Source: a bacterium (GTDB lineage Bacteria > Patescibacteriota > Patescibacteriia > JACPHY01). Taken from it: DNA of 35,770 nucleotides. The stretch lies in contig JAUSKG010000025.1 of assembly GCA_030647005.1 (NCBI GenBank), forward strand, positions 1-35,770, given 5' to 3'. Positions 21,539-34,235 of this stretch are shown here, one piece after another (positions within the stretch are counted from its first letter, which is position 1; every line of letters starts with the position of its first letter). A program made the position numbers and the translations under genes. The notes under the pieces are model-generated. The model was not told the DNA's origin. It was given only the letters and a program-made list of their open reading frames with translations, and ran no database searches.

Positions 21539-23041
21539 TCAGAAGATCGAAAGGCCGTGCGTGTGGATGATGATCGGTTCGGTGCTCGCGGTCGGTGTCG
21601 CTGGCTGCGATACGACAGTCGTCGGAGCCGGTGCCGTCTCAACGCCTCCCTCAAAGCCGCCAGTAAGTGGCTGGCCTGCTGGGTGGAGATCGAGCGCCTC
21701 GTTCGAGAGCACGCGCAGGTTGTTCCAGGAGTAGCCGAGCTGCTCGATGACGCGCGGTGAGGCGAACGGTCGGCGTTGGCCCTGCGAGATGACGAACGCC
21801 TGCGGGAGGTACTTTGGTGCAGTGACGATTTCGCCATCCGGCATTGTGAGTGGATCGCCCTGCTTCTTCCCCGCGAGCGCGGATGCGAGCATGGGCTTCA
21901 CCAGTTGTGCGGGGAACCGCGCCTCGCGGATAGCGGGGTGGGGGATCGGTCGCTTCACATCGCCCACGAGCAGATACTCCTGCTTCGTACCAAGGTCTAG
22001 CACGAGCTGCCCGCGCGGGCTATCGCTCGCGCCTGCGACCTCCTTGCCCTCGGCGTATGCAGCGAGGTCATCGGGCGTTGCCACCTCAACCTCGTCCGGG
22101 TGGAAGCCAAGCTGCCGGAAGACCTCGGCAGAAGCAACGCGCCTCCGCTCACCGTCTACGATGAGCCACCGCATCCCCGCGGCATCCGCGAGGACGCTGT
22201 AGTTTGTAAATCGAATCGTCGGACCCTCCTGGTACGCAGCGATATCGTTCGCTTCCGCGGCGATGATCTTCTCCGCGGGAGTGTACGTCGTGAGTACCGC
22301 GGGAGACACGAAGCGTTGACGCTTGCTCTGTGCGATCCGCCATACGGTGCCGTCCGGCCCGCGCAGAATCGCGCCATCGGGGTAGCGGCCGGTGCCAAAC
22401 CACTGGGCGAACAGGCGCGCGAAGTTGTAGTTGCCGCCCGCACCACTCGCGCCACCGCGCCACGGCGTGTAGGAGTACAACGCGGCGGTGGCGTTGTTCT
22501 GCGGGGTGATCGTGAAACCATCCGATGTGGTCTTCGTCCTCCCAACGGCCCAGCGCGCAATCGTCTCGCCTTTCATCGTGAGGTCTTCCAGGTACCCCTG
22601 GAGCTGGAGTGCCGCACCGCGTACCTGCTTGCCAAATCCCTTGAACCGGCCATTGCATCCGGTGCCGTCCGGACAACCGTACCCCATCGCCCAGTCGTAC
22701 TGCGACTGCACTGGCGCGCGATCGTCAACGAGTCCCTGCTCCTTCTGGAGCATGACGAGGAGCACCTGCGGATTCACCCGCGCCTCCTGCGACGCGAGCC
22801 AGATGATCTCGTGCGGGAACTTCAGCGCACCCGTGGAGTCGGGCTGGAACACGCTCGCGAGGAGCGACCCGCGATCCTGCAACCACCTCCCCACATCTCC
22901 AAGCGACATCGTCGCGCTGTTCGTGAGCGTGTGGTCGGAAATGATGTGCTGCTCATCAAAGGAGAACGCCCGCGCGCTGAACGGCGCGAGGAGCACAAAG
23001 CAGCAAGCACTGACGATAACCATGGCGGAGGAACGACGCAT
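21539..23041 (-). CDS. secreted lysozyme-like protein with C-terminal sequence repeats
   Basis: 500 residues. ATG 23041 gives a clear signal peptide ending SARA-F. Residues of about 55-165 look like a lysozyme/transglycosylase-like domain: EIIWLASQEARVNPQVLLVMLQKEQG, then DWAMGYGCPDGTGCNGRFKGFGKQ and YNFARLFAQWFG. KEQ may hold the catalytic Glu. The remainder has divergent repeats in which a tract like DGTVWRIAQSKRQRFVSP or GQRRPFASPRVIEQLGYSW is followed by a spacer and (A/L)Y.EG or HPAGQPL; at least three to four units are visible. The tail is a Pro/Thr/Ala-rich linker (APAPTTVVSQPATPTASTEP). It probably acts on or binds the cell wall. Confidence 0.75.
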   Translation of the reverse strand: MRRSSAMVIVSACCFVLLAPFSARAFSFDEQHIISDHTLTNSATMSLGDVGRWLQDRGSLLASVFQPDSTGALKFPHEIIWLASQEARVNPQVLLVMLQKEQGLVDDRAPVQSQYDWAMGYGCPDGTGCNGRFKGFGKQVRGAALQLQGYLEDLTMKGETIARWAVGRTKTTSDGFTITPQNNATAALYSYTPWRGGASGAGGNYNFARLFAQWFGTGRYPDGAILRGPDGTVWRIAQSKRQRFVSPAVLTTYTPAEKIIAAEANDIAAYQEGPTIRFTNYSVLADAAGMRWLIVDGERRRVASAEVFRQLGFHPDEVEVATPDDLAAYAEGKEVAGASDSPRGQLVLDLGTKQEYLLVGDVKRPIPHPAIREARFPAQLVKPMLASALAGKKQGDPLTMPDGEIVTAPKYLPQAFVISQGQRRPFASPRVIEQLGYSWNNLRVLSNEALDLHPAGQPLTGGFEGGVETAPAPTTVVSQPATPTASTEPIIIHTHGLSIF

Positions 23042-23086: not shown

Positions 23087-23112
23087 GAAGACCACCCCGA
23101 GGGGTGGTCTCT
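23087..23112 (-). terminator. Rho-independent terminator of the 127-residue ORF
   Basis: On the minus strand AGACCACCCC pairs with GGGGTGGTCT, followed by TCTTTTGTTG. It lies just past the stop of the gene at 23126-23509. Confidence 0.8.
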
Positions 23113-23643: not shown

Positions 23644-26295
23644 TTACACCTCCACCTGAAGTACCTCTCGTGCGGGCCGGAAAACGAAGTGCTCCTCCTC
23701 CACGTCCACATGGACCGTGGAGTCCTCGGTGATGTTCCCGTTGATAATCTCAAGGGCGAGGGGATTGAGGATTTCGCTCTCGATGAGTCGCTTGAGCGGG
23801 CGCGCACCAAATGCGGGGTCATACCCACGCTTCGCGAGGAGCTCTTTCGCGGCATCTGATACCACGACGGTGATCTTCTTGTCCTGGAGACGCTTCGCGA
23901 TACGCACGAGCTGGATGTCCACGATGCGCTGGAGGTGCTGCGGTGCGAGCGTGTGGAAGACGATGACATCGTCCACGCGGTTGAGGAACTCCGGCTTGAA
24001 GCGCTCGCGGAGACGCTCCTGGAGCTTCTCGCGCATCTGCTCCTCCGGCGGGAGCGTGGATTCCCCATCGGTGAACCCGAGCGTCGCGCCACGTCCGGCC
24101 TCCAGGATGAGCTCCGATCCCAGGTTTGAGGTCATGACGATGATCGCGTTCTTGAAGTTCACCTTGCGACCCTTCGCATCTGTGAGGTGACCGTCATCGA
24201 GAATTTGGAGGAGGACGTTGAACACGTCCGGGTGGGCCTTCTCGATCTCATCGAACAGCACGACACTGTACGGACGGCGTCGAATCGCCTCCGTGAGCTG
24301 TCCACCCTCCTCATAGCCGACGTACCCGGGCGGCGAGCCGACCATCCGCGAGACCGCGTGTTTCTCCATGAACTCGGACATGTCCACGCGCACCATGGCG
24401 TCTTCGTCATTGAACATGAAGCCCGCGAGCGCGCGTGCGAGCTCGGTCTTCCCAACACCCGTTGGTCCGAGGAAGATGAACGACCCGATGGGGCGCGTCT
24501 GCTCGGCGATGCCCGCGCGTGAACGGCGCACGGCATTCGCCACCGCGCGGATCGCTTCCTCCTGACCCACGACACGGCTCGCGAGCGTCTCCTCCATGCG
24601 CGCGAGCTTCTCGGCTTCCTGCTCGAGCATCTTGCGGACAGGGATACCGGTCCACCGCGCAACGACCGCGGCGATGGCCTCCTCGTTCACCTCCTCCTTG
24701 AGCACGCGCACGGCGGCCTGGATGTTTGCGAGACGTTGCTCCTGCTCACGGATTTGCCGCTCGAGCTCAGGGATCCTGCCGTAGCGAATCTCCGCCACGC
24801 GCTGGAGGTTCCCCTCACGGCTCATGCGGTCCGCCTCGGCGCGCAGCTCGTCAATCGTCGTCTTCGATGCACGCATCTTCGCGATGAGGTCGCGTTCCAT
24901 GCGCCACCGCTGCTCGAGCTCCTTCGCCTGCTCCTCGAGCTGCTTGAGCTCCCCGTCAATCGCGCTCAGGCGCTCCTTCGCGTCCTTATCCTTCTCCTGC
25001 TTGAGTGCCTGCTGCTCGATCTGGAGCTGCATGATCCTCCGCTGGAGCTTGTCGAGTTCCTCCGGCTGGCTCTCGATGGCCATGCGGAGTGCCGATGCGG
25101 CCTCGTCCACCAGATCAATCGCCTTATCCGGCAGGAAACGATCCGCAACGTAGCGATGGCTGAGTTCCGCGGCCGCAACGATCGCACTGTCCGTGATGCG
25201 GACGCCGTGGTGTACCTCGTACTTCTCCTTGATGCCGCGGAGAATCGCGATCGTGTCCTCCACCGTGGGCTCCGCGACGAGGACGGGTTGGAAGCGTCGC
25301 TCGAGTGCCGCGTCTTTCTCAACGTGCTTCTGATACTCCTTGAGCGTCGTCGCGCCGATCGCGTGGAGTTCTCCGCGTGCGAGCATGGGCTTGAGCATGT
25401 TCGCCGCGTCAATGGCACCCTCGGCCGCACCCGCACCAACGAGCGTGTGGAGCTCGTCAATGAAGAGGATGATTTTGCCCGCCGACGCGGTAATCTCCTT
25501 GAGCACCGCCTTCAGCCGCTCCTCAAACTCGCCACGGAACTTTGTACCCGCAACGAGCGCCCCGAGGTCGAGCGAGATGAGCTCCTTGTCCTTGAGCGAT
25601 TCCGGCACGTCGCCCTTCGCAACGCGCTGTGCGACACCCTCCGCGATTGCGGTTTTCCCGACACCTGGCTCACCGATGAGGACCGGATTATTTTTTGTGC
25701 GACGCGTGAGCACCTGCATGACGCGGCGAATCTCCGAGTCACGGCCAATGACGGGATCGAGCTTGCCGTCCCGCGCCTGCTGCGTGAGGTTCACGCTGTA
25801 CTTCTCGAGTGCCTGGTACGTGGCCTCCGGTTCCGGCGAGTCCACACGCTGCGTGCCGCGGACATCGGCGAGCACCTTGAGGAGTGCCTCGCGCTCCACA
25901 TGGAGCTCGGTGAGGAGCGTGCGGATGGGGGAGCGCACCTCGAGCATCGCGAGGAGGAAGTGCTCCGTGGAGATGTATTCGTCCTTGAGCTTGCGCGCTT
26001 CCTCCGCGGCGCGATCGAGGACGCCCTTGAGCTCTGGCGTGACGAAAATTTGTCCAACACCTCCGGATGGCGCCATGCGTACCGCCGGCAAGAGATTGAG
26101 CTCGCCCTCGATGCGGCGACGCATGTCGCGCACGTCAACATCCAGCCGTTGGAGCACGGCCGTCACCAACCCTTGCTCCTGCGTGAGGAGCGAAACCATG
26201 AGGTGGATGACATCCACCTGCTGGTGTCCGCGTTCCGCGGCGATCTGCGACGCACGCTGCAACGCTTCCTGCGCTTTGTACGTGAAGTTCTGCAT
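23644..26295 (-). CDS. clpB: ATP-dependent disaggregase ClpB
   Basis: 883 residues. ClpB is a hexameric ring that pulls proteins out of aggregates, working with DnaK. In order: Clp N-domain repeats (to about 150); NBD1 with Walker A GEPGVGKT (208-215) and Walker [20 protein letters not shown]; the coiled-coil M domain (about 400-530, very rich in E, K and R, with [15 protein letters not shown]). This M domain separates ClpB from ClpA and ClpC. NBD2 has [15 protein letters not shown] near 610 and [16 protein letters not shown]. The C-terminal D2-small domain ends ARPLKRLIE...[12 protein letters not shown] sigma-70-type promoter precedes it; no CIRCE element was found. Confidence 0.97.
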
Positions 26296-26563: not shown

Positions 26564-26613
26564 GAGGGAGGGAGGTGAGGACTCACTCGGTCGAAATGAC
26601 GAGGGGTGAGCAA
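26540..26613. repeat. 37-bp tandem duplication of the repeat end
   Basis: GAGGACTCACTCGGTCGAAA begins at 26540 and again at 26577, continuing into ATGACGAGG both times. The second unit supplies an in-frame GTG upstream of the glycosyltransferase ATG. Confidence 0.8.
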
Positions 26614-26616
26614 GGT

Positions 26617-27513
26617 ATGAAGCACACCGGAAAGAAAATCAACCGCCGCGTCACACGATTCCGAACTCCGAGCAGGATTCGGGTTCGCCCCGTCCTTCCG
26701 CCACCTACGCGCCCGCGCGATAGCCAGTGGGGGAGAACCGGACGCGCGGAGGTCCTTGGGACACCAGTGGATCGGTGCTCCACCGTGGAGTTCAGTATGT
26801 TCATCGAGCGTGCGCTCGCGGGAAACCACCTGCGGCGTATCGTCACACTCAATCCAGAGATCGCACTCGCGGGATGGCGGCACCCGCGTTTTGGGAACCT
26901 CCTCCACACCGCAGACCTCGTGACGATAGACGGATTTGGCATCGCGTGCGCGCTCTGGTGGAACGGGTACGGTCGGGCACAGCGACTCACGGGCACCGAC
27001 ATGCTCCCGATCCTCTGCGCGTCCATGGAGGAGCGCGGGCTCGCGGTGACGTTCTTGCTCCGCACAGACGGCCTCACGATGCCGGACGTCCTCCGGAAGA
27101 CCATCGAGCAGCACTGGCCCAAGCTCCGTGCCGCATACGGTACCGTTGATCCTCGCGCATCGCTCGATCCCGCGATGGTGCGCGCAGTGAATGACCAGCA
27201 GCCCGCGTGCATCATCATGAACGTCGGCGGCGTGGCACAGGAGGAGTGGATCTGCCGCAACGGAGATGCGTTCCAGAATGCTCGAATCATCGTGGGTACT
27301 GGTGGGGCGATTGACTACCTCTGCGGAACCGTACAGAGTCCTCCGCCGCTCATGCGACGACTCGGGTTGGAGTGGCTCTGGCGCGTTGCCCGCCAACCGT
27401 GGCGCTTCCGTCGTGTCCTTGATGCCGCGGTCATCTTCCCACTCGTCGTCGTTGCGGAGCGCTTCCAGCGCGTCCGACTCCCGCGCCTCACGGTCCGTTT
27501 GCGCACCTCATGA
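26617..27513 (+). CDS. WecG/TagA/CpsF family glycosyltransferase
   Basis: 298 residues from ATG 26617. The frame is open further upstream to GTG 26575, but those 14 codons come from the repeat duplication. The GT26 family moves an N-acetylmannosamine-type sugar onto an undecaprenyl-linked acceptor at the inner membrane face. Signatures are RIVTLNPEIALAGWRHPRFG, ADLVTIDGFGIACAL and RLTGTDMLP. Also present are ACIIMNVGGVAQEEWI in place of the usual G.PkQE.W, ARIIVGTGGAIDYLCG and LGLEWLWRVARQPWRFRRV. The C-terminal amphipathic part probably contacts the membrane. The N-terminal 45 residues are basic and unassigned. ATGA overlap with gltX. Confidence 0.88.
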   Translation: MKHTGKKINRRVTRFRTPSRIRVRPVLPPPTRPRDSQWGRTGRAEVLGTPVDRCSTVEFSMFIERALAGNHLRRIVTLNPEIALAGWRHPRFGNLLHTADLVTIDGFGIACALWWNGYGRAQRLTGTDMLPILCASMEERGLAVTFLLRTDGLTMPDVLRKTIEQHWPKLRAAYGTVDPRASLDPAMVRAVNDQQPACIIMNVGGVAQEEWICRNGDAFQNARIIVGTGGAIDYLCGTVQSPPPLMRRLGLEWLWRVARQPWRFRRVLDAAVIFPLVVVAERFQRVRLPRLTVRLRTS

Positions 27514-27524
27514 TCGCACGTCCT

Positions 27525-28925
27525 ATGGTTCGCACCCGCTACGCCCCCTCACCAACCGGCGAGCTCCACCTCGGAGGCCTCCGCACCGCGCTCTACGCGT
27601 ACCTCTACGCGAAGCATACGGGTGGCGTGTTCTACCTCCGCATCGAGGACACCGATCAGTCACGCACCGTAGCCGGCAGTGCCGATCGACTCATGGAGCA
27701 GCTGCGCGCAGTGGGCATCACCTGGGATGAGGGACCGGATGTCGGCGGGTCATACGGCCCGTACGTTCAATCGCAACGCTTGGAGCACTACCACGATGCT
27801 ACAGCGCAGCTCCTCAGCGCGGGAAAGGCCTACCGATGCGACTGCTCGGCGGAACGACTCACGGAACTCCGCGAGCAGCTCACGGCGCAAAAACTCCCGC
27901 CGATGTACGACGGGAAGTGTCGCACACGCACCGACGTTGCGGAGGAGGGGAGTGTCGTACGCTTCCGCATCCCCGACGATGAAGACCGTGTCGTTGTTTT
28001 CGATGGCATCCACGGCGAGATCGCGGTGGCCATGCACACGCTCGACGATTTTGTGCTCCAGAAGGCCGATGGATTCCCCACGTACCACCTCGCGCACGTC
28101 GTGGACGATCACCTCATGGAGACGACGCACGTCATTCGCGGCAGCGAGTGGCTCCCGTCACTCCCCAAGCACCACCTCCTCTTCAATGCATTCGACTGGG
28201 AGATGCCGGAGTTCGCGCACCTACCGGTGCTCTTGGGTGCAAAGGGGAAACTCTCGAAACGCGACGGCGACACGCACGTCGCGCAGTACCTCCAGTGGTG
28301 CCTCCCCGACGCGCTCGTGAACTTCGTTGCGCTCCTCGGATGGAATCCAAGCGGTGAACAGGAGATCTACACACAGGAAGAACTCATCGCGCGTTTCGAG
28401 ATCACGAAAGTTCACCCCTCTCCCGCGCACGTGAACTTTGAGAAGCTCGAGTGGTTCAACGGGGAGTACATCCGCACCATGGACCCCGCAGCGCTCGCAG
28501 ACCTCGTCCGCTCGCGCATGGACACGAGCAATGCGACGGCGGATTTCGTCCTCCGTGCGGTGGAGCTCGAGCAACCACGACTCAAGCGGCTCGATGCGTT
28601 CCCGCAGTGGTACTTTGCGCCCTATGCGCAGGAGGCAACGCTCGCGTGGAAGGAGCACTCGTTGGAAGGAGCCAAGGAGAACCTCCGGGGCATCGCCGAT
28701 CTCCTCGACGGGATAGGGGAGTGGCCGCAGACGCCGGAGGCGTTCGAGCAGACAGTGAAGGCGTGGATTGCGGCGAGGGGACTCAAGAATGGCGAGGTGC
28801 TCTGGCCCATGCGCGTGGCCCTGTCCGGTAAGCAGGCATCCCCCGGACCATTTGACCTCGCGTGGTTATTTGGCAGAGAGGAGACATTGCGAAGAATCAC
28901 GTATGCCATTGAACAGGGAACCTAG
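27525..28925 (+). CDS. gltX: glutamyl-tRNA synthetase
   Basis: 466 residues from ATG 27525 (MVRTRYAPSPTGELHLGGLR), the usual family start. ATG 27510, which overlaps the previous stop, would add five residues. The class I HIGH-type site is LHLGG and the KMSKS-type site is GKLSKRDGD. YLRIEDTDQSRT and YVQSQRLEHYHDAT are typical of bacterial GluRS. A C-terminal anticodon-binding helical domain is present. It may also charge tRNA-Gln in a Gat-dependent route; this cannot be decided here. It overlaps the next gene by 23 bases. Confidence 0.96.
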   Translation: MVRTRYAPSPTGELHLGGLRTALYAYLYAKHTGGVFYLRIEDTDQSRTVAGSADRLMEQLRAVGITWDEGPDVGGSYGPYVQSQRLEHYHDATAQLLSAGKAYRCDCSAERLTELREQLTAQKLPPMYDGKCRTRTDVAEEGSVVRFRIPDDEDRVVVFDGIHGEIAVAMHTLDDFVLQKADGFPTYHLAHVVDDHLMETTHVIRGSEWLPSLPKHHLLFNAFDWEMPEFAHLPVLLGAKGKLSKRDGDTHVAQYLQWCLPDALVNFVALLGWNPSGEQEIYTQEELIARFEITKVHPSPAHVNFEKLEWFNGEYIRTMDPAALADLVRSRMDTSNATADFVLRAVELEQPRLKRLDAFPQWYFAPYAQEATLAWKEHSLEGAKENLRGIADLLDGIGEWPQTPEAFEQTVKAWIAARGLKNGEVLWPMRVALSGKQASPGPFDLAWLFGREETLRRITYAIEQGT

Positions 28926-30150
28926 GTGGTCTGCCTACGGACGTGCAGCTGCCGTGCTCGCCACGGTGGCCTGCATTGTCGTGGGATCGTCGAGTGTCCT
29001 CGCTGCGGAGCAGAGCTCCGAGGTGAAAGAAATTTTCGACCTCAACAAGGCGATCGACGCCAAGTCCAACCGCCTTGAGGACATCCAGACACAGATTGAA
29101 CGCTACCGTGCATCTATCCAGAAGGCACAGGGGACCGCGCAATCGCTCACGAACCGGCTGCGTACACTCGATGATCGCATCGCGCGGCAGAAGCTTGAAA
29201 TCGAGCGCGTGCAGGTGGAGCGTGAGCAGGTGGGGTTGGAGATCACCGCGACATCCATCGCGCTCGATGAGGCGCGCACGAACGTCGAGCAACGCCGGAG
29301 GATGCTCGCCGCGCTCCTCACCGAGGTACGCGCGGCGGATGCCCGACCGCAGATGCACGTCGTCCTCGCATCAGATTCCGTCGGTGCGTACTACGCACAG
29401 CGGAACCAACTCGCGCAGGTCCAACAGCACCTCCGCGGTATCCTCGCGGCGGTACGATTTGAGCGCGAGCAGCTCACCGCCGATGATCGCGCACTCGCGG
29501 AACGCAATGCGGAGCTCACCGCGCTGGACGAGGAGCTCCGCGACGAACAGGCCTCACTCAACCAGGAGCAGGACACCAAGCAGCAGCTCCTCACAACCAC
29601 CTGGAGCAACGAGCAGCGCTACCAGCAGATCATCAGAGACCTCAAGGCCGAGGTTGCGGCCATTGACGCGGAGATCGTCGCACTCGAGAACGCCGTCCGG
29701 GCGAAGCTCGAACGCATTGACGAGCACTTCGGCGCGCTCGGCCGCGTGGCCTTCTCCTGGCCCGTGCCCAACCGTGGCATCACCGCGTACTTCCATGATC
29801 CCGAGTATCCCTACCGGCACATCTTCGAGCATCCTGCCGTGGACATCCGTGCGGCGCAGGGGAGTACGATCGTCGCACCGGCCCCCGGCTACGTCGCGAA
29901 GACAAAAGATAACGGCATGGGCTACAGCTACGTCATGCTCGTGCACCCAGGCGGCTTCTCAACGGTCTACGGCCACGTCTCCTGCTTCAAGGTGCAAGAG
30001 GGAACCTATGTGGACAGGGGAGACCCCATTGCCTGCGTTGGCGGCAGACCTGGCACTCGCGGTGCCGGATCCCTCACGAGCGGTGCCCACCTCCACTTTG
30101 AGGTGCGCCTGAACGGCATCCCCGTGAACCCGTTGAACTACTTGCTATGA
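28903..30150 (+). CDS. secreted coiled-coil M23 peptidase (EnvC/NlpD-like)
   Basis: 415 residues from ATG 28903, chosen because it gives a proper signal peptide (AAAVLATVACIVVGSSSVLA). Residues of about 40-280 are a long coiled coil with heptads (AIDAKSNRLEDIQTQIERYR; EIERVQVEREQVGLEITATS). The C-terminal LytM/M23 domain keeps the zinc ligands: H310 and D314 in HPAVD, and H396-L-H398-F-E in AHLHFEV. It can therefore be an active peptidoglycan endopeptidase, unlike degenerate EnvC or NlpD activators. A role in wall cleavage at division is inferred. The 36-nt dispersed repeat overlaps its stop. Confidence 0.9.
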   Translation: MPLNREPRWSAYGRAAAVLATVACIVVGSSSVLAAEQSSEVKEIFDLNKAIDAKSNRLEDIQTQIERYRASIQKAQGTAQSLTNRLRTLDDRIARQKLEIERVQVEREQVGLEITATSIALDEARTNVEQRRRMLAALLTEVRAADARPQMHVVLASDSVGAYYAQRNQLAQVQQHLRGILAAVRFEREQLTADDRALAERNAELTALDEELRDEQASLNQEQDTKQQLLTTTWSNEQRYQQIIRDLKAEVAAIDAEIVALENAVRAKLERIDEHFGALGRVAFSWPVPNRGITAYFHDPEYPYRHIFEHPAVDIRAAQGSTIVAPAPGYVAKTKDNGMGYSYVMLVHPGGFSTVYGHVSCFKVQEGTYVDRGDPIACVGGRPGTRGAGSLTSGAHLHFEVRLNGIPVNPLNYLL

Positions 30151-30948: not shown

Positions 30949-32781
30949 ATGCCCAAGGACGCCCGAGGGGCGTTCACGTACCGCGTTCCTGAGGACCTCG
31001 CACCGCGTATCGCGCGCGGTGCGTTTGTCCGTATCCCGTTTCGCGCGAAACGACTCTGGGGCATCTGCACGAACACGACCGCTCCACCGATCACCGGCGC
31101 GCGTGACATCCTCGCGGTGAACGATGATGCGGTACTCACGGATGATGAGATCCAGAGCGTCGAAGACATCGCAGCGCTCCATGGCGTCTCCATCGCCACG
31201 GCGGCGTACCTCGTGCTGCCCGCTCCCCCGCTGACGGGGGCCGTGAGTTTTGATGCGTCGTATAACAAACATCCGCCATCACCTGGACGAGGAACGCGCA
31301 GCACGACACCGCACGATGCGACCGCGCTCGCACAGGGAGCTGGCGACACCATCGCGGTGTTCTCGAACCATGAGCAACGTATCGAGTTGCTCCGTGCATA
31401 TACACGGTCGGTGCTCGACGGGCACAAAACCATCCTCATCATCACGCCGCACCGCGCGTGGCTGCAGCGTCTCGCGCATGAGCTCCGCGACCTACCACTC
31501 GTGGTCTTCGATCCTGCGCAGCATGGCAAACGTGCACAGTGGGCCGCGTACGTGCGCGCCCGCACCCGACCGGTCTGCGTGCTCGCCACCCGTGCCGGCG
31601 CGTGCTTCGCACCCCCGATCCTTGGCGCAATCATCGTGGATCTCGCCCACGAGGATGACCACCAGCAGGAGGACATGCACCCGCGGTACGATGCGCGTAC
31701 GATCACGCAACGGATTGCCGTCGCACGGAATCTCCCGCGCCTCCTCCTCTCCCCTGCCCCGAACACGACGGACTGGGTGGTCGCGCGCAAACGCGTGGAT
31801 CTCGGCGCGCAGCCGCTGGCGCTCCGCATTGCTCGTCTCGATCAGTTCTGGAAGGGTGGCGGGGTTGGGCTCCTCACGCACGAGCTCCACGATGCCATCC
31901 GCGAGACACTCGACGCTCGCGGACGCATCCTCATCCTCCATAACCGACGCGGACGCATGGGTCGCGTGGTCTGTCGCGACTGCGGCACCACGCTCCAGTG
32001 TCCAACGTGTACCACGGCACTCACGGATTTCGGTCCCGTGTACCGGTGTCGCGTGTGTGGAACCACAGACGAACCCGCACTGCTCTGCCCCGCGTGCCAA
32101 TCGCCGCAGCTCGGGTTCCAGTCCATCGGCACCCAGGGCATCGTTGATCTCCTCCGCACGTTGTACCCGGACGCGGTGATCACGCAGGTGGATCGCGACC
32201 AACCCGATGCGCCACCGGAGCACGCAGATATCATCGTTGCGTCGGAGCGATTCACGACATCCATCGCACCCCTATTCCGGAACCCCATCCACCTCGTCGC
32301 CGTCCTCCATGCCGAACGCTACGTCCGTGGCGATGACTACCGTGGAACGGAGCAACTCCTCCAGGCACTCCGGAGCATCGCGGTATGGGCGAGCACCTGG
32401 AAGGCATCGCTCCTCGTGCAGACCGCACTTCCCGACCATCCGGCACTCCAGGCACTCCGCGGACCGCTCACGGACTTCTACCGCGCCGAGCTCGCGGAAC
32501 GCACGGCACTGCACTACCCGCCGAAGACGCGCCTCCTCCGCCTCGATGCGGTCAATCCTGATGACGCACCGTCACTCATCCACTTGCTCAAAACGCGGTA
32601 CCATGGTACGGTGCTTGCGATTGATGGTCCGTACGAGTACGGCATCGTTCACAAACGACGCACGACGAGCATTCTCGTCCGCATGACCCCCGATGTCGCA
32701 AACGACACGATCGCTCGCATCGTCAAGGACGTTCCCGCGGATTGGACGGGCACCCTCGATCCCACAAAGCTCCACGCGTAG
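30949..32781 (+). CDS. priA: primosomal protein N' (PriA), ATPase motifs degenerate
   Basis: 610 residues from ATG 30949. PriA recognises stalled forks and reloads the replisome. The N-terminal DNA-binding domain (GAFTYRVPEDLAPRIARGAF, VRIPF) and eight zinc Cys are present: C342, C345, C351, C354, C367, C370, C380, C383. The helicase site is not: the Walker A position reads VFSNHEQRIELL instead of GxxGSGKT, and DEEH appears as VDLAHEDDH. The same state is known for actinobacterial PriA, so this should be a structural, non-helicase PriA. In-frame codons upstream (GLYVDVVPLLR before MPKD) match the normal first strand, but no ATG, GTG or TTG lies there after the TAA at 30859. Initiation may use a rare codon. 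Confidence 0.85.
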   Translation: MPKDARGAFTYRVPEDLAPRIARGAFVRIPFRAKRLWGICTNTTAPPITGARDILAVNDDAVLTDDEIQSVEDIAALHGVSIATAAYLVLPAPPLTGAVSFDASYNKHPPSPGRGTRSTTPHDATALAQGAGDTIAVFSNHEQRIELLRAYTRSVLDGHKTILIITPHRAWLQRLAHELRDLPLVVFDPAQHGKRAQWAAYVRARTRPVCVLATRAGACFAPPILGAIIVDLAHEDDHQQEDMHPRYDARTITQRIAVARNLPRLLLSPAPNTTDWVVARKRVDLGAQPLALRIARLDQFWKGGGVGLLTHELHDAIRETLDARGRILILHNRRGRMGRVVCRDCGTTLQCPTCTTALTDFGPVYRCRVCGTTDEPALLCPACQSPQLGFQSIGTQGIVDLLRTLYPDAVITQVDRDQPDAPPEHADIIVASERFTTSIAPLFRNPIHLVAVLHAERYVRGDDYRGTEQLLQALRSIAVWASTWKASLLVQTALPDHPALQALRGPLTDFYRAELAERTALHYPPKTRLLRLDAVNPDDAPSLIHLLKTRYHGTVLAIDGPYEYGIVHKRRTTSILVRMTPDVANDTIARIVKDVPADWTGTLDPTKLHA

Positions 32782-32785
32782 CGTT

Positions 32786-33274
32786 ATGCTCCTCCCCGTC
32801 CTCGTAAACCCCCATCCCCTCCTCCGCGAACGCGCGCAGGAAGTGGACGCAGCGACCCTCGAACGCCTGAAGCGCGAGGGCTTCGTTGAAAATCTCGTGG
32901 AGACGATGCGCGTGAAGGATGGTGTCGGTATCGCAGCCATCCAGGTGGGCCAACTCCACCGCATCATCGTGGTGCAGGAGGGCACAAAGACCCGCGTCTA
33001 CATCAACCCCGTCATCACGGGACACTCCATCCGCAAGGAGACCGATACCGAGGGCTGTCTGTCCGTTCCCGGGAAGTTTGGCCTCGTGCGACGGCCAAAA
33101 ACCTGCACGATTCGCGCACTCGACCTCGATGGCAATCCCATCGTCCGCAAGGCCAAAGGGCTCGTGGCGCGCATCTACCAGCACGAGGTGGACCACCTCA
33201 ACGGCATCCTCTTCGTTGACAAGGCCGAGCACGTCATGGATTACGACCCCGAACAGGATACTCCGAACGTCTGA
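32786..33274 (+). CDS. def: peptide deformylase
   Basis: 162 residues. It removes the formyl group from nascent protein N-termini; Fe or Zn enzyme. Motif I GVGIAAIQ (46-53), motif II EGCLS (89-93, Cys ligand) and motif III QHEVDH (132-137, His ligands and catalytic Glu) are all intact. ATG 32786 is 4 bases after priA. fmt follows 52 bases downstream, the common priA-def-fmt order. Confidence 0.96.
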   Translation: MLLPVLVNPHPLLRERAQEVDAATLERLKREGFVENLVETMRVKDGVGIAAIQVGQLHRIIVVQEGTKTRVYINPVITGHSIRKETDTEGCLSVPGKFGLVRRPKTCTIRALDLDGNPIVRKAKGLVARIYQHEVDHLNGILFVDKAEHVMDYDPEQDTPNV

Positions 33275-33326
33275 ATGGTAAAAATATGACCCCCTCGTCG
33301 CGCGCGACGACTTCGTGTACCCACCT

Positions 33327-34235
33327 ATGGCAACACCCCGTAAAACCTGCCTGTTCCTTGGAACCTCGGACTTCTCGTTGCCGAGCTTGGAGATGCTCGC
33401 GGGGGGAGGTGTCTGCGAACTGCTTGGTGTTGTCACGCAGTCGGATAAGCCGGCTGGTCGAGGACACCGGGAAACCGCACCGCCGGTTGCGCGGTGGGCG
33501 CGAGAGCACGGACTGCGCGTGTGGCAACCCGAGACAAAGGGCGCGCTCACCGAGATCATCCGCGAGCTCGCGCCGGATGTTGTGGTGGTTGTTGCGTACG
33601 GTCGCCTCATCGCGAGCGATGCGTTGGACATCCCACCGCACGGGTATGTGAACCTCCACCCGTCGCTCCTCCCACGCTGGCGCGGCCCATCACCGATTGT
33701 GGCGGCGATTGCGGCGGGCGATCGGGAAACCGGTGTGACGGTCATGCGCATTGATGCGCAGATGGATCACGGCCCCATCCTCGCGCAGGAGGCCACTCCC
33801 CTCCCCGCAGATGCGACGCGCTCGCAGATGGAGGAGCGACTCGCGAAACAGGGTGCCAAACTCCTCCTAAGCTCGTTGACGGCGTACCTCAACGGAACCC
33901 TGACACCCGTACCGCAGGACGATGCTCGTGCGACGACCTGTCCCCTCCTCTCCCGTGAGGACGGCCACATCAACTGGTCCGAGTCCGCTACGGTCATCGA
34001 GCGCAAGGTACGCGCCTACGAAGGATGGCCCGGGACCTGGGTCACCGAGCCATCCGACAAGCGTCTCAAAGTACTCGCCACGCATGTGGCAACGTCCGCA
34101 TCACCAGGAACACTCAGCGTCATCTGTGGCGATGGACAGGTTCTCATCCTGGATCGCGTCCAGCCAGAAGGCAAGCCACCGATGCGCGGTGACGATTTCC
34201 TCCGCGGACGCGGCGGAGCCGTCGCGCTCGCGTAG
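33327..34235 (+). CDS. fmt: methionyl-tRNA formyltransferase
   Basis: 302 residues from ATG 33327; GTG 33315 would add four residues. It formylates initiator Met-tRNA using 10-formyl-THF. The catalytic triad N109, H111 and D147 is visible in VNLHPSLLPRWRGPSPI and RIDAQMDHGPI. KVRAYEGWPGTWV opens the C-terminal OB-like tRNA-binding domain, which is somewhat short. It converges with the PEBP lipoprotein gene with 4 bases between. Confidence 0.95.
   Translation: MATPRKTCLFLGTSDFSLPSLEMLAGGGVCELLGVVTQSDKPAGRGHRETAPPVARWAREHGLRVWQPETKGALTEIIRELAPDVVVVVAYGRLIASDALDIPPHGYVNLHPSLLPRWRGPSPIVAAIAAGDRETGVTVMRIDAQMDHGPILAQEATPLPADATRSQMEERLAKQGAKLLLSSLTAYLNGTLTPVPQDDARATTCPLLSREDGHINWSESATVIERKVRAYEGWPGTWVTEPSDKRLKVLATHVATSASPGTLSVICGDGQVLILDRVQPEGKPPMRGDDFLRGRGGAVALA

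Follow-up and report, generated by a model that had tools for sequence, protein, structure and literature searches.

A near-core Patescibacteria protein with a predicted lysozyme-type domain and four EccB-like repeats, probably a hydrolase of the cell wall

The protein analyzed here most likely belongs to the lysozyme superfamily, as a near-core and so far undescribed member with EccB-type repeats. Its gene lies at positions 21539..23041 on the minus strand of a 35,770-nucleotide stretch of a Patescibacteria genome (hereafter the window; contig JAUSKG010000025.1, assembly GCA_030647005.1), and the 500-residue product joins a lysozyme-like domain (N-domain) to four repeats. We consider it probable that this protein is a secreted hydrolase of glycan strands which uses Glu101 as an acid, is held on the wall by EccB/PlyCB-type repeats, and acts chiefly on the wall of the cell that produces it. 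Export would proceed by means of the signal peptide; the N-terminal domain, similar to GH73 enzymes and lytic transglycosylases, would then cut the glycan backbone of peptidoglycan, with Glu101 as the acid, while the repeats would attach to peptidoglycan or a wall polymer and so keep the enzyme at the envelope. Its near-core distribution makes trimming of the cell's own wall in growth and division the most likely task.

Results and discussion

The open reading frame starts with ATG at 23041 and ends with a stop codon at 21541-21539, and an alternative upstream GTG start at 23095 would yield 518 instead of 500 amino acids. GC content is 0.78 at third codon positions versus 0.65 and 0.50 at the other two. 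Against a homologue that is 72% identical (locus L031), the Jukes-Cantor dN is about 0.21 and dS about 2.1, the ratio being rough because synonymous sites are near saturation. The codon-position GC, together with a dN far below dS, shows that the gene is real and constrained.

All features of the protein given below are on the minus strand. Residues 1-25 (MRRSSAMVIVSACCFVLLAPFSARA; 22967..23041) were judged by eye to form a putative signal peptide, and the protein is predicted to be exported; hydrophobic N-termini are also visible along the alignment of homologues. The lysozyme-superfamily (GH73/SLT-like) domain, identified with VIA-align and hhalign, occupies residues 27-220 (22382..22963). 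It is followed by an array spanning residues 221-460, composed of repeats of 57-63 amino acids each, which were recognized by alignment and repeat profiles: R1 (residues 221-277; 22211..22381), R2 (residues 278-337; 22031..22210), R3 (residues 338-400; 21842..22030), and R4 (residues 401-460; 21662..21841). Per-position profiles of the repeats detect the other three positions with best E values of 8.6e-21 to 3.9e-9, and at E<0.01 at least 28 of the 33 members of each repeat position are detected. An identical four-repeat layout, in register, is present in all 33 aligned homologues (33 rows from 35 loci, the duplicate contigs L002 and L031, as well as L014 and L035, having been merged). A sequence-only reading made before this analysis had described a degenerate array; the array is real, as shown by the cross-detection of all four positions, but "degenerate" is too weak a description of a module that is fixed at four repeats in the class. 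The RxF(A/V)SP motif named in the same reading occurs exactly in R1 (RFVSP) and almost exactly in R4 (RPFASP), whereas R2 and R3 deviate from it. The Pro/Thr/Ala tail (residues 461-500; 21542..21661) is likewise present in the window protein, but it is predicted to be disordered (pLDDT about 30) and is poorly conserved, a length of about 40 residues being shared, among the 33 rows, only by the window protein, L031, and L028, while four others have 15-19 residues there.

A lysozyme-type fold of the N-domain is predicted from the AlphaFold2 model, which was built from ten sequences and has a mean pLDDT of 70.9 and a pTM of 0.43, with the N-domain core near 90 and residues 154-167 and 192-201 below 50; single-sequence folding gave an uninformative model (mean pLDDT 33.4). 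The best VIA-align match of the predicted model was LytB (7pj4), with a Z of 10.6 and an rmsd of 2.9 over 136 residues, and further matches comprised LytB (Z 10.1 and 9.7), AtlE (9.3-9.6), a Clostridium perfringens autolysin (8.9), MltF (8.1), and MltC (8.0). All top matches are wall glycosidases and fall within residues 21-239. In Foldseek searches, AtlE (E 2.1e-3) came next after the EccB-type matches described below. The N-domain is mostly helical, and for helical bundles a Z below about 13 can be due to chance; in favour of a true match are the agreement of the top rows on one kind of enzyme and the alignment of the glutamate.

Comparison of profiles with hhalign points in the same direction. 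The N-domain scored 41.4 against GH73 (89 columns, probability 86.9%; column-shuffled controls at most 15.0, n=15), on par with SLT and GH73 compared with each other (41.9), and 29.2 against SLT (33 columns, probability 30.5%; shuffled controls at most 16.7, n=15), while seven neighbour families used as negative controls reached at most 20.8. Both reference profiles were made from Patescibacteria stretches: translations were made for 22 of 30 SLT and 14 of 23 GH73 loci, of which 17 and 12, respectively, were used after broken or poorly fitting rows had been left out.

Glu101 (22739..22741), the predicted catalytic acid, is placed opposite the glutamate of the ES motif in both the SLT and GH73 profiles and is located at the end of helix 91-102 in the predicted model. 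The glutamate of the ES motif is catalytic in both families, and the PDB titles of the LytB E585Q and AtlE E138A mutants fit such a role. Among 66 N-domains, half of them from the class set and half from fusion proteins (33 each), Pro91, Glu101, Gln139, Tyr189, and Pro193 are invariant, and Ala118, Gly120, and Thr185 are found in 65; in the class set, the residue following Glu101 is Gln in 28 of 33 proteins, Met in three, and Ser in two. The lysozyme-like nature that the sequence-only reading had assigned to this domain is upheld by the match to GH73 enzymes and lytic transglycosylases and by a glutamate present at the expected position in every N-domain.

The N-domain also differs from its closest known relatives. 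GH73 enzymes (PF01832; Streptococcus LytB, Staphylococcus AtlE, also named Autolysin E) provide the best fold and profile matches with the active-site glutamate aligned, but visual inspection of the GH73 sequences used did not reveal the conserved motifs LQKEQSL and ATAxLYxYTP of the N-domain. SLT/GH23 enzymes (MltF, MltC, MltE) and goose-type lysozyme match in fold at Z 6.6-8.1, with the glutamate aligned at the lower SLT probability given above. The motif set of SLT/GH23 is ES-GLMQ-AYNxG, visible in most of the SLT stretches used, whereas the window family lacks a PF01464 match and has AxGYG in place of GLMQ and ATAxLYxYTP in place of AYNxG, these motifs thus being absent or altered.

Searches of Pfam, NCBIfam, and PDB sequences gave no match of the window protein at any family cut-off, and no Pfam or NCBIfam model covers the protein in the window or in the 33 members. 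PF01832 (GH73) and PF01464 (SLT) each matched 0 of 33 members at E<=1. PF01832 also has no match in the window's own genome (5 of 14 control genomes were positive). The sole PF01464 match in this genome belongs to another gene (L117, contig C1), with the SLT match located in a 704-aa open frame, which makes it a second candidate wall enzyme. With EccB models, the window protein scored 12.2 bits for PF05108 (cut-off 27) and 17.3 for TIGR03919 (cut-off 154), and among the members the Pfam model matched 8 of 33 (best 6.6e-6) and the NCBIfam model 9 of 33 (best 5.5e-5). PDB sequence searches with the protein, the full profile, or the repeat profile produced no credible match, and tblastn of the protein against phage and plasmid collections produced none. 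A DUF5818 match at 0.026 was too weak to be used, and matches of single members to vWA_SIBA-E (3.9e-4), DUF4859 (0.0025), Lysozyme_like (0.17), and other families were dropped as weak. In a literature search that covered few subscription papers, no description of the protein was recognized. Because it falls outside the profile of each family, we did not assign the protein to GH73, SLT, or EccB; most likely it acts in the manner of GH73 enzymes and is tethered in that of PlyCB/EccB-type binders.

The repeats resemble those of EccB. Foldseek against the PDB with the AlphaFold model returned 11 matches at E<0.001 (best E 3.9e-8), and the match to EccB runs through the repeats: seven are chains of EccB1 or EccB3, and the other four are B chains of the ESX-5 complex, taken here to be EccB5. 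In two EccB proteins of Mycolicibacterium, hhalign aligned the repeat profile with the initial repeat at a score of 41.8 (shuffled controls at most 16.0, neighbour families at most 16.5) and with the last at 23.0. Overlay of whole EccB chains is poor (Foldseek rmsd 22-28, TM 0.11-0.15; VIA-align with EccB 5cyu, Z 7.6, rmsd 17.4, over residues 277-399), which we interpret as expected if the repeats match singly and differ in overall arrangement, order, or spacing. EccB (PF05108, TIGR03919), the periplasmic subunit of type VII secretion, shares the number of repeats (four), their sequence type and, according to Foldseek, their local fold. EccB is described as having a membrane helix, an ESX locus, and a core domain at its centre (PMC4769845), whereas the repeats of the window protein are contiguous and stand behind a hydrolase-like domain. 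No ESX family was found among the ten window proteins scanned, and the search for EccB in the own genome was empty (0 of 14 control genomes positive; the same model detects EccB in two plasmids).

Likeness of the window repeats to PlyCB, the wall-binding subunit of the phage C1 endolysin, is indirect and runs via EccB; PlyCB is a ring of eight separate subunits, unlike the window repeats. In the published comparison, the repeats of EccB1 are reported as similar to PlyCB, the wall-binding subunit of a phage lysin, with a Dali Z of 5.0 for repeat 1, and it is stated that no experiment yet supports binding of the wall or peptidoglycan by EccB (PMC4769845). The binding array proposed in the sequence-only reading is therefore plausible by analogy, given that the repeats match those of EccB, which have been published as PlyCB-like.

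Phage proteins share the repeats as well. The best phrog_9616 match covers residues 220-335, that is, about two repeats extending into R2 (protein E 1.5e-12), and BFVD matches were found for proteins of Rhodococcus phage Weasels2 and Streptomyces phage LukeCage (2.2e-8 and 7.6e-5). These actinobacteriophage proteins, which at a guess form one family with phrog_9616, have 102-118 positions and no assigned function, and are too short for an added lysozyme-like domain. Scanning of the viral collection with the repeat profile gave no match, though PHROGs and BFVD contain repeat proteins.

Both modules are found combined with domains directed at walls or sugars; as the loci were selected for their similarity to the query, the fractions given here are not frequencies. 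In 33 N-domain proteins that were fetched, Pfam identified a ricin-type lectin domain in one, B_lectin in two, LGFP in two, Peptidase_S8 in one, dockerin in three, and Ig-like domains (N_BRCA1_IG) in seven; among ten fetched repeat proteins lacking the N-domain, it identified Amidase_2 in two, SpoIID in one, Peptidase_S8 in two, and PA14 in one. One Patescibacteria protein of 1312 aa (L103:920-4855, minus strand) combines Amidase_2, PA14, and SpoIID with seven repeats, so that a single repeat array bears two distinct domains that cut the wall. Two larger proteins, L104:778-7890 (minus strand, 2371 aa; also with Ig-like, carboxypeptidase-regulatory, and fn3 domains) and L105:3397-10527 (plus strand, 2377 aa), have four repeats at the C-terminal end, and another, shorter repeat protein is encoded 0.9-2 kb from each of them. 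In L088:666-2843 (minus strand), the N-domain precedes six stretches of ricin-type lectin (PF14200, 1.2e-77), which is a sugar-targeted version in another class. A 24,404-aa giant N-domain protein of one relative was rejected as an artefact of an open frame running through a run of N.

N-domains also occur alone on contigs of the viral collection, namely L037:5893-6672 (L036/L037), L038:1688-2302, L039:5764-6612, and L044:1217-1996; three of these contigs exceed 100 kb, and no clear signal peptide was seen by eye. No PHROG matched the stand-alone N-domains of L037-L039. These proteins are possibly unrecognized phage lysins. On a further viral-collection contig (L040:2-970), an N-domain whose start is lost at the contig end is fused to NlpC/P60. 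The L037 N-domain was not found in the phage collection, nor was the L040 N-part in plasmids or phages.

From this pattern we draw a tentative proposal, which may well prove wrong: the EccB repeat could be one use of an old, mobile module binding a wall polymer, common to Patescibacteria and actinophages, rather than an invention of type VII secretion, and in Patescibacteria this module would tether several unrelated wall-lytic domains, including an undescribed family of the lysozyme superfamily.

Domain fusions also bear on whether the N-domain cuts glycans at all. It could be that the protein is structural, with the lysozyme fold kept for binding glycans instead of cutting them and the repeats anchoring the protein to the envelope, a role that has been proposed for EccB. 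PlyCB is described as having a tethering role only, and EccB is seen as a structural part of its machine, although a reported ATPase activity is also mentioned (PMC4769845); moreover, conservation of the glutamate can also reflect sugar binding, and a WecG/TagA glycosyltransferase is encoded near the gene. We regard a purely structural role as improbable, since the glutamate occupies the catalytic position in 66/66 N-domains, accompanied by Gln139 and Tyr189 just as consistently, and since either module is fused to other wall-lytic domains.

Occurrence in other Patescibacteria, raised by the sequence-only reading, is wide. In a single-sequence search of the window's own genome and 56 relatives, a match was present in 52 of the 57 genomes, and both halves of the protein were covered in 51, own genome included; in G036, both halves are present but apart. 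For the five genomes without a single-sequence match, a profile finds nothing more than short repeat matches in G002 and G030, and no match even with the profile in G019, G022, and G046. Across the phylum, 126 of 286 genomes surveyed match at least one half, and of the 23 same-class genomes among those listed (own included; 140 genomes without a match left out), 22 match at E <=3e-145, some of them being rows of the search profile itself, and G030 matches weakly.

Presence of the gene was compared with that of murC, which is above the curated cut-off in 49 of 57 genomes, own genome included. Of the five genomes that lack the gene, three (G022, G030, and G046) have murC below the cut-off, versus five of the 52 that carry the gene (G006, G016, G020, G040, and G048; Fisher p 0.017, kinship ignored). 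At 1e-50, a threshold set post hoc, murC is weak in 2 of 5 versus 1 of 52 (G016, G022, and G046; Fisher p 0.018, kinship again ignored). Exceptions exist in both directions: murC is present in G019 and G002, which lack the gene, and G016 carries the gene although its murC match is not strong.

The neighbourhood is mostly of housekeeping type. The upstream neighbour on the same strand encodes ClpB (23644..26295, minus strand; named from translation). Beyond it, a WecG/TagA/CpsF glycosyltransferase (26575..27513, plus strand; PF03808, 3.6e-34) is followed by gltX (27510-28925) and an M23-family protein, that is, a wall endopeptidase (28768..30150, plus strand; PF01551, 5.8e-22), and then by a PriA-def-fmt run (30949..34235, plus strand; PF17764, PF01327, and PF00551), PriA being named solely from PF17764 (2.4e-9). 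Over 24 loci (23 distinct, as L035 and L125 share one contig), def and fmt were neighbours in 22, priA in 20, WecG in 19, ClpB in 12, gltX in 12, and an M23 peptidase in nine; absences may lie off the edge because the flanks are 5-6 kb. Most relatives carry fmt-def-priA-gene-(clpB) on one strand and, on the opposite strand, WecG-gltX-M23; in L137, gltX-M23 lies on the other side. Compared with most relatives, in which the priA-def-fmt run is beside the gene, the window shows a local rearrangement at 30949-34235, with the run placed beyond the M23 gene, across WecG-gltX-M23. In L134, from the same genus, the other neighbours found in the window adjoin the gene, and the contig ends before the priA-def-fmt run.

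The wall on which such an enzyme would act may be that of the cell itself or that of a host. In the latter case, the same hydrolase would be directed outward, its repeats binding a wall or surface polymer of the host and the enzyme opening or feeding on the host wall in epibiotic attachment. Cultivated Patescibacteria are described as episymbionts (PMC12206443), peptidase and lysozyme homologues encoded beside virB4 in Southlakia epibionticum ML1 have been reported as essential for epibiotic growth (PMC12102498), and Vampirococcus hydrolases have been proposed to act on host walls (PMC8080830). The lectin and protease partners of the N-domain in other classes, where it is joined to ricin, B_lectin, LGFP, or subtilase domains, suit outward use too. 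We nevertheless find action on a host unlikely for the window protein: one conserved protein in 51 of 57 genomes, encoded mostly beside housekeeping genes, under strong constraint and more often missing from genomes with weak murC, argues against it, and no virB4 or pilus gene was found among the ten window proteins scanned. The near-universal presence and the mostly housekeeping neighbourhood are the reasons why we favour the cell's own wall as the target.

Conclusions

A near-core, constrained protein, predicted to be secreted and found across a class of ultrasmall, mostly uncultured bacteria, has thus remained nameless in Pfam and NCBIfam. It offers Patescibacteria a candidate wall enzyme that is open to testing, and its repeats provide a simple, soluble, tandem form in which the published idea that EccB repeats bind peptidoglycan could be examined. 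Were the repeats such a mobile module, EccB would fasten the ESX machine to the wall through identical chemistry.
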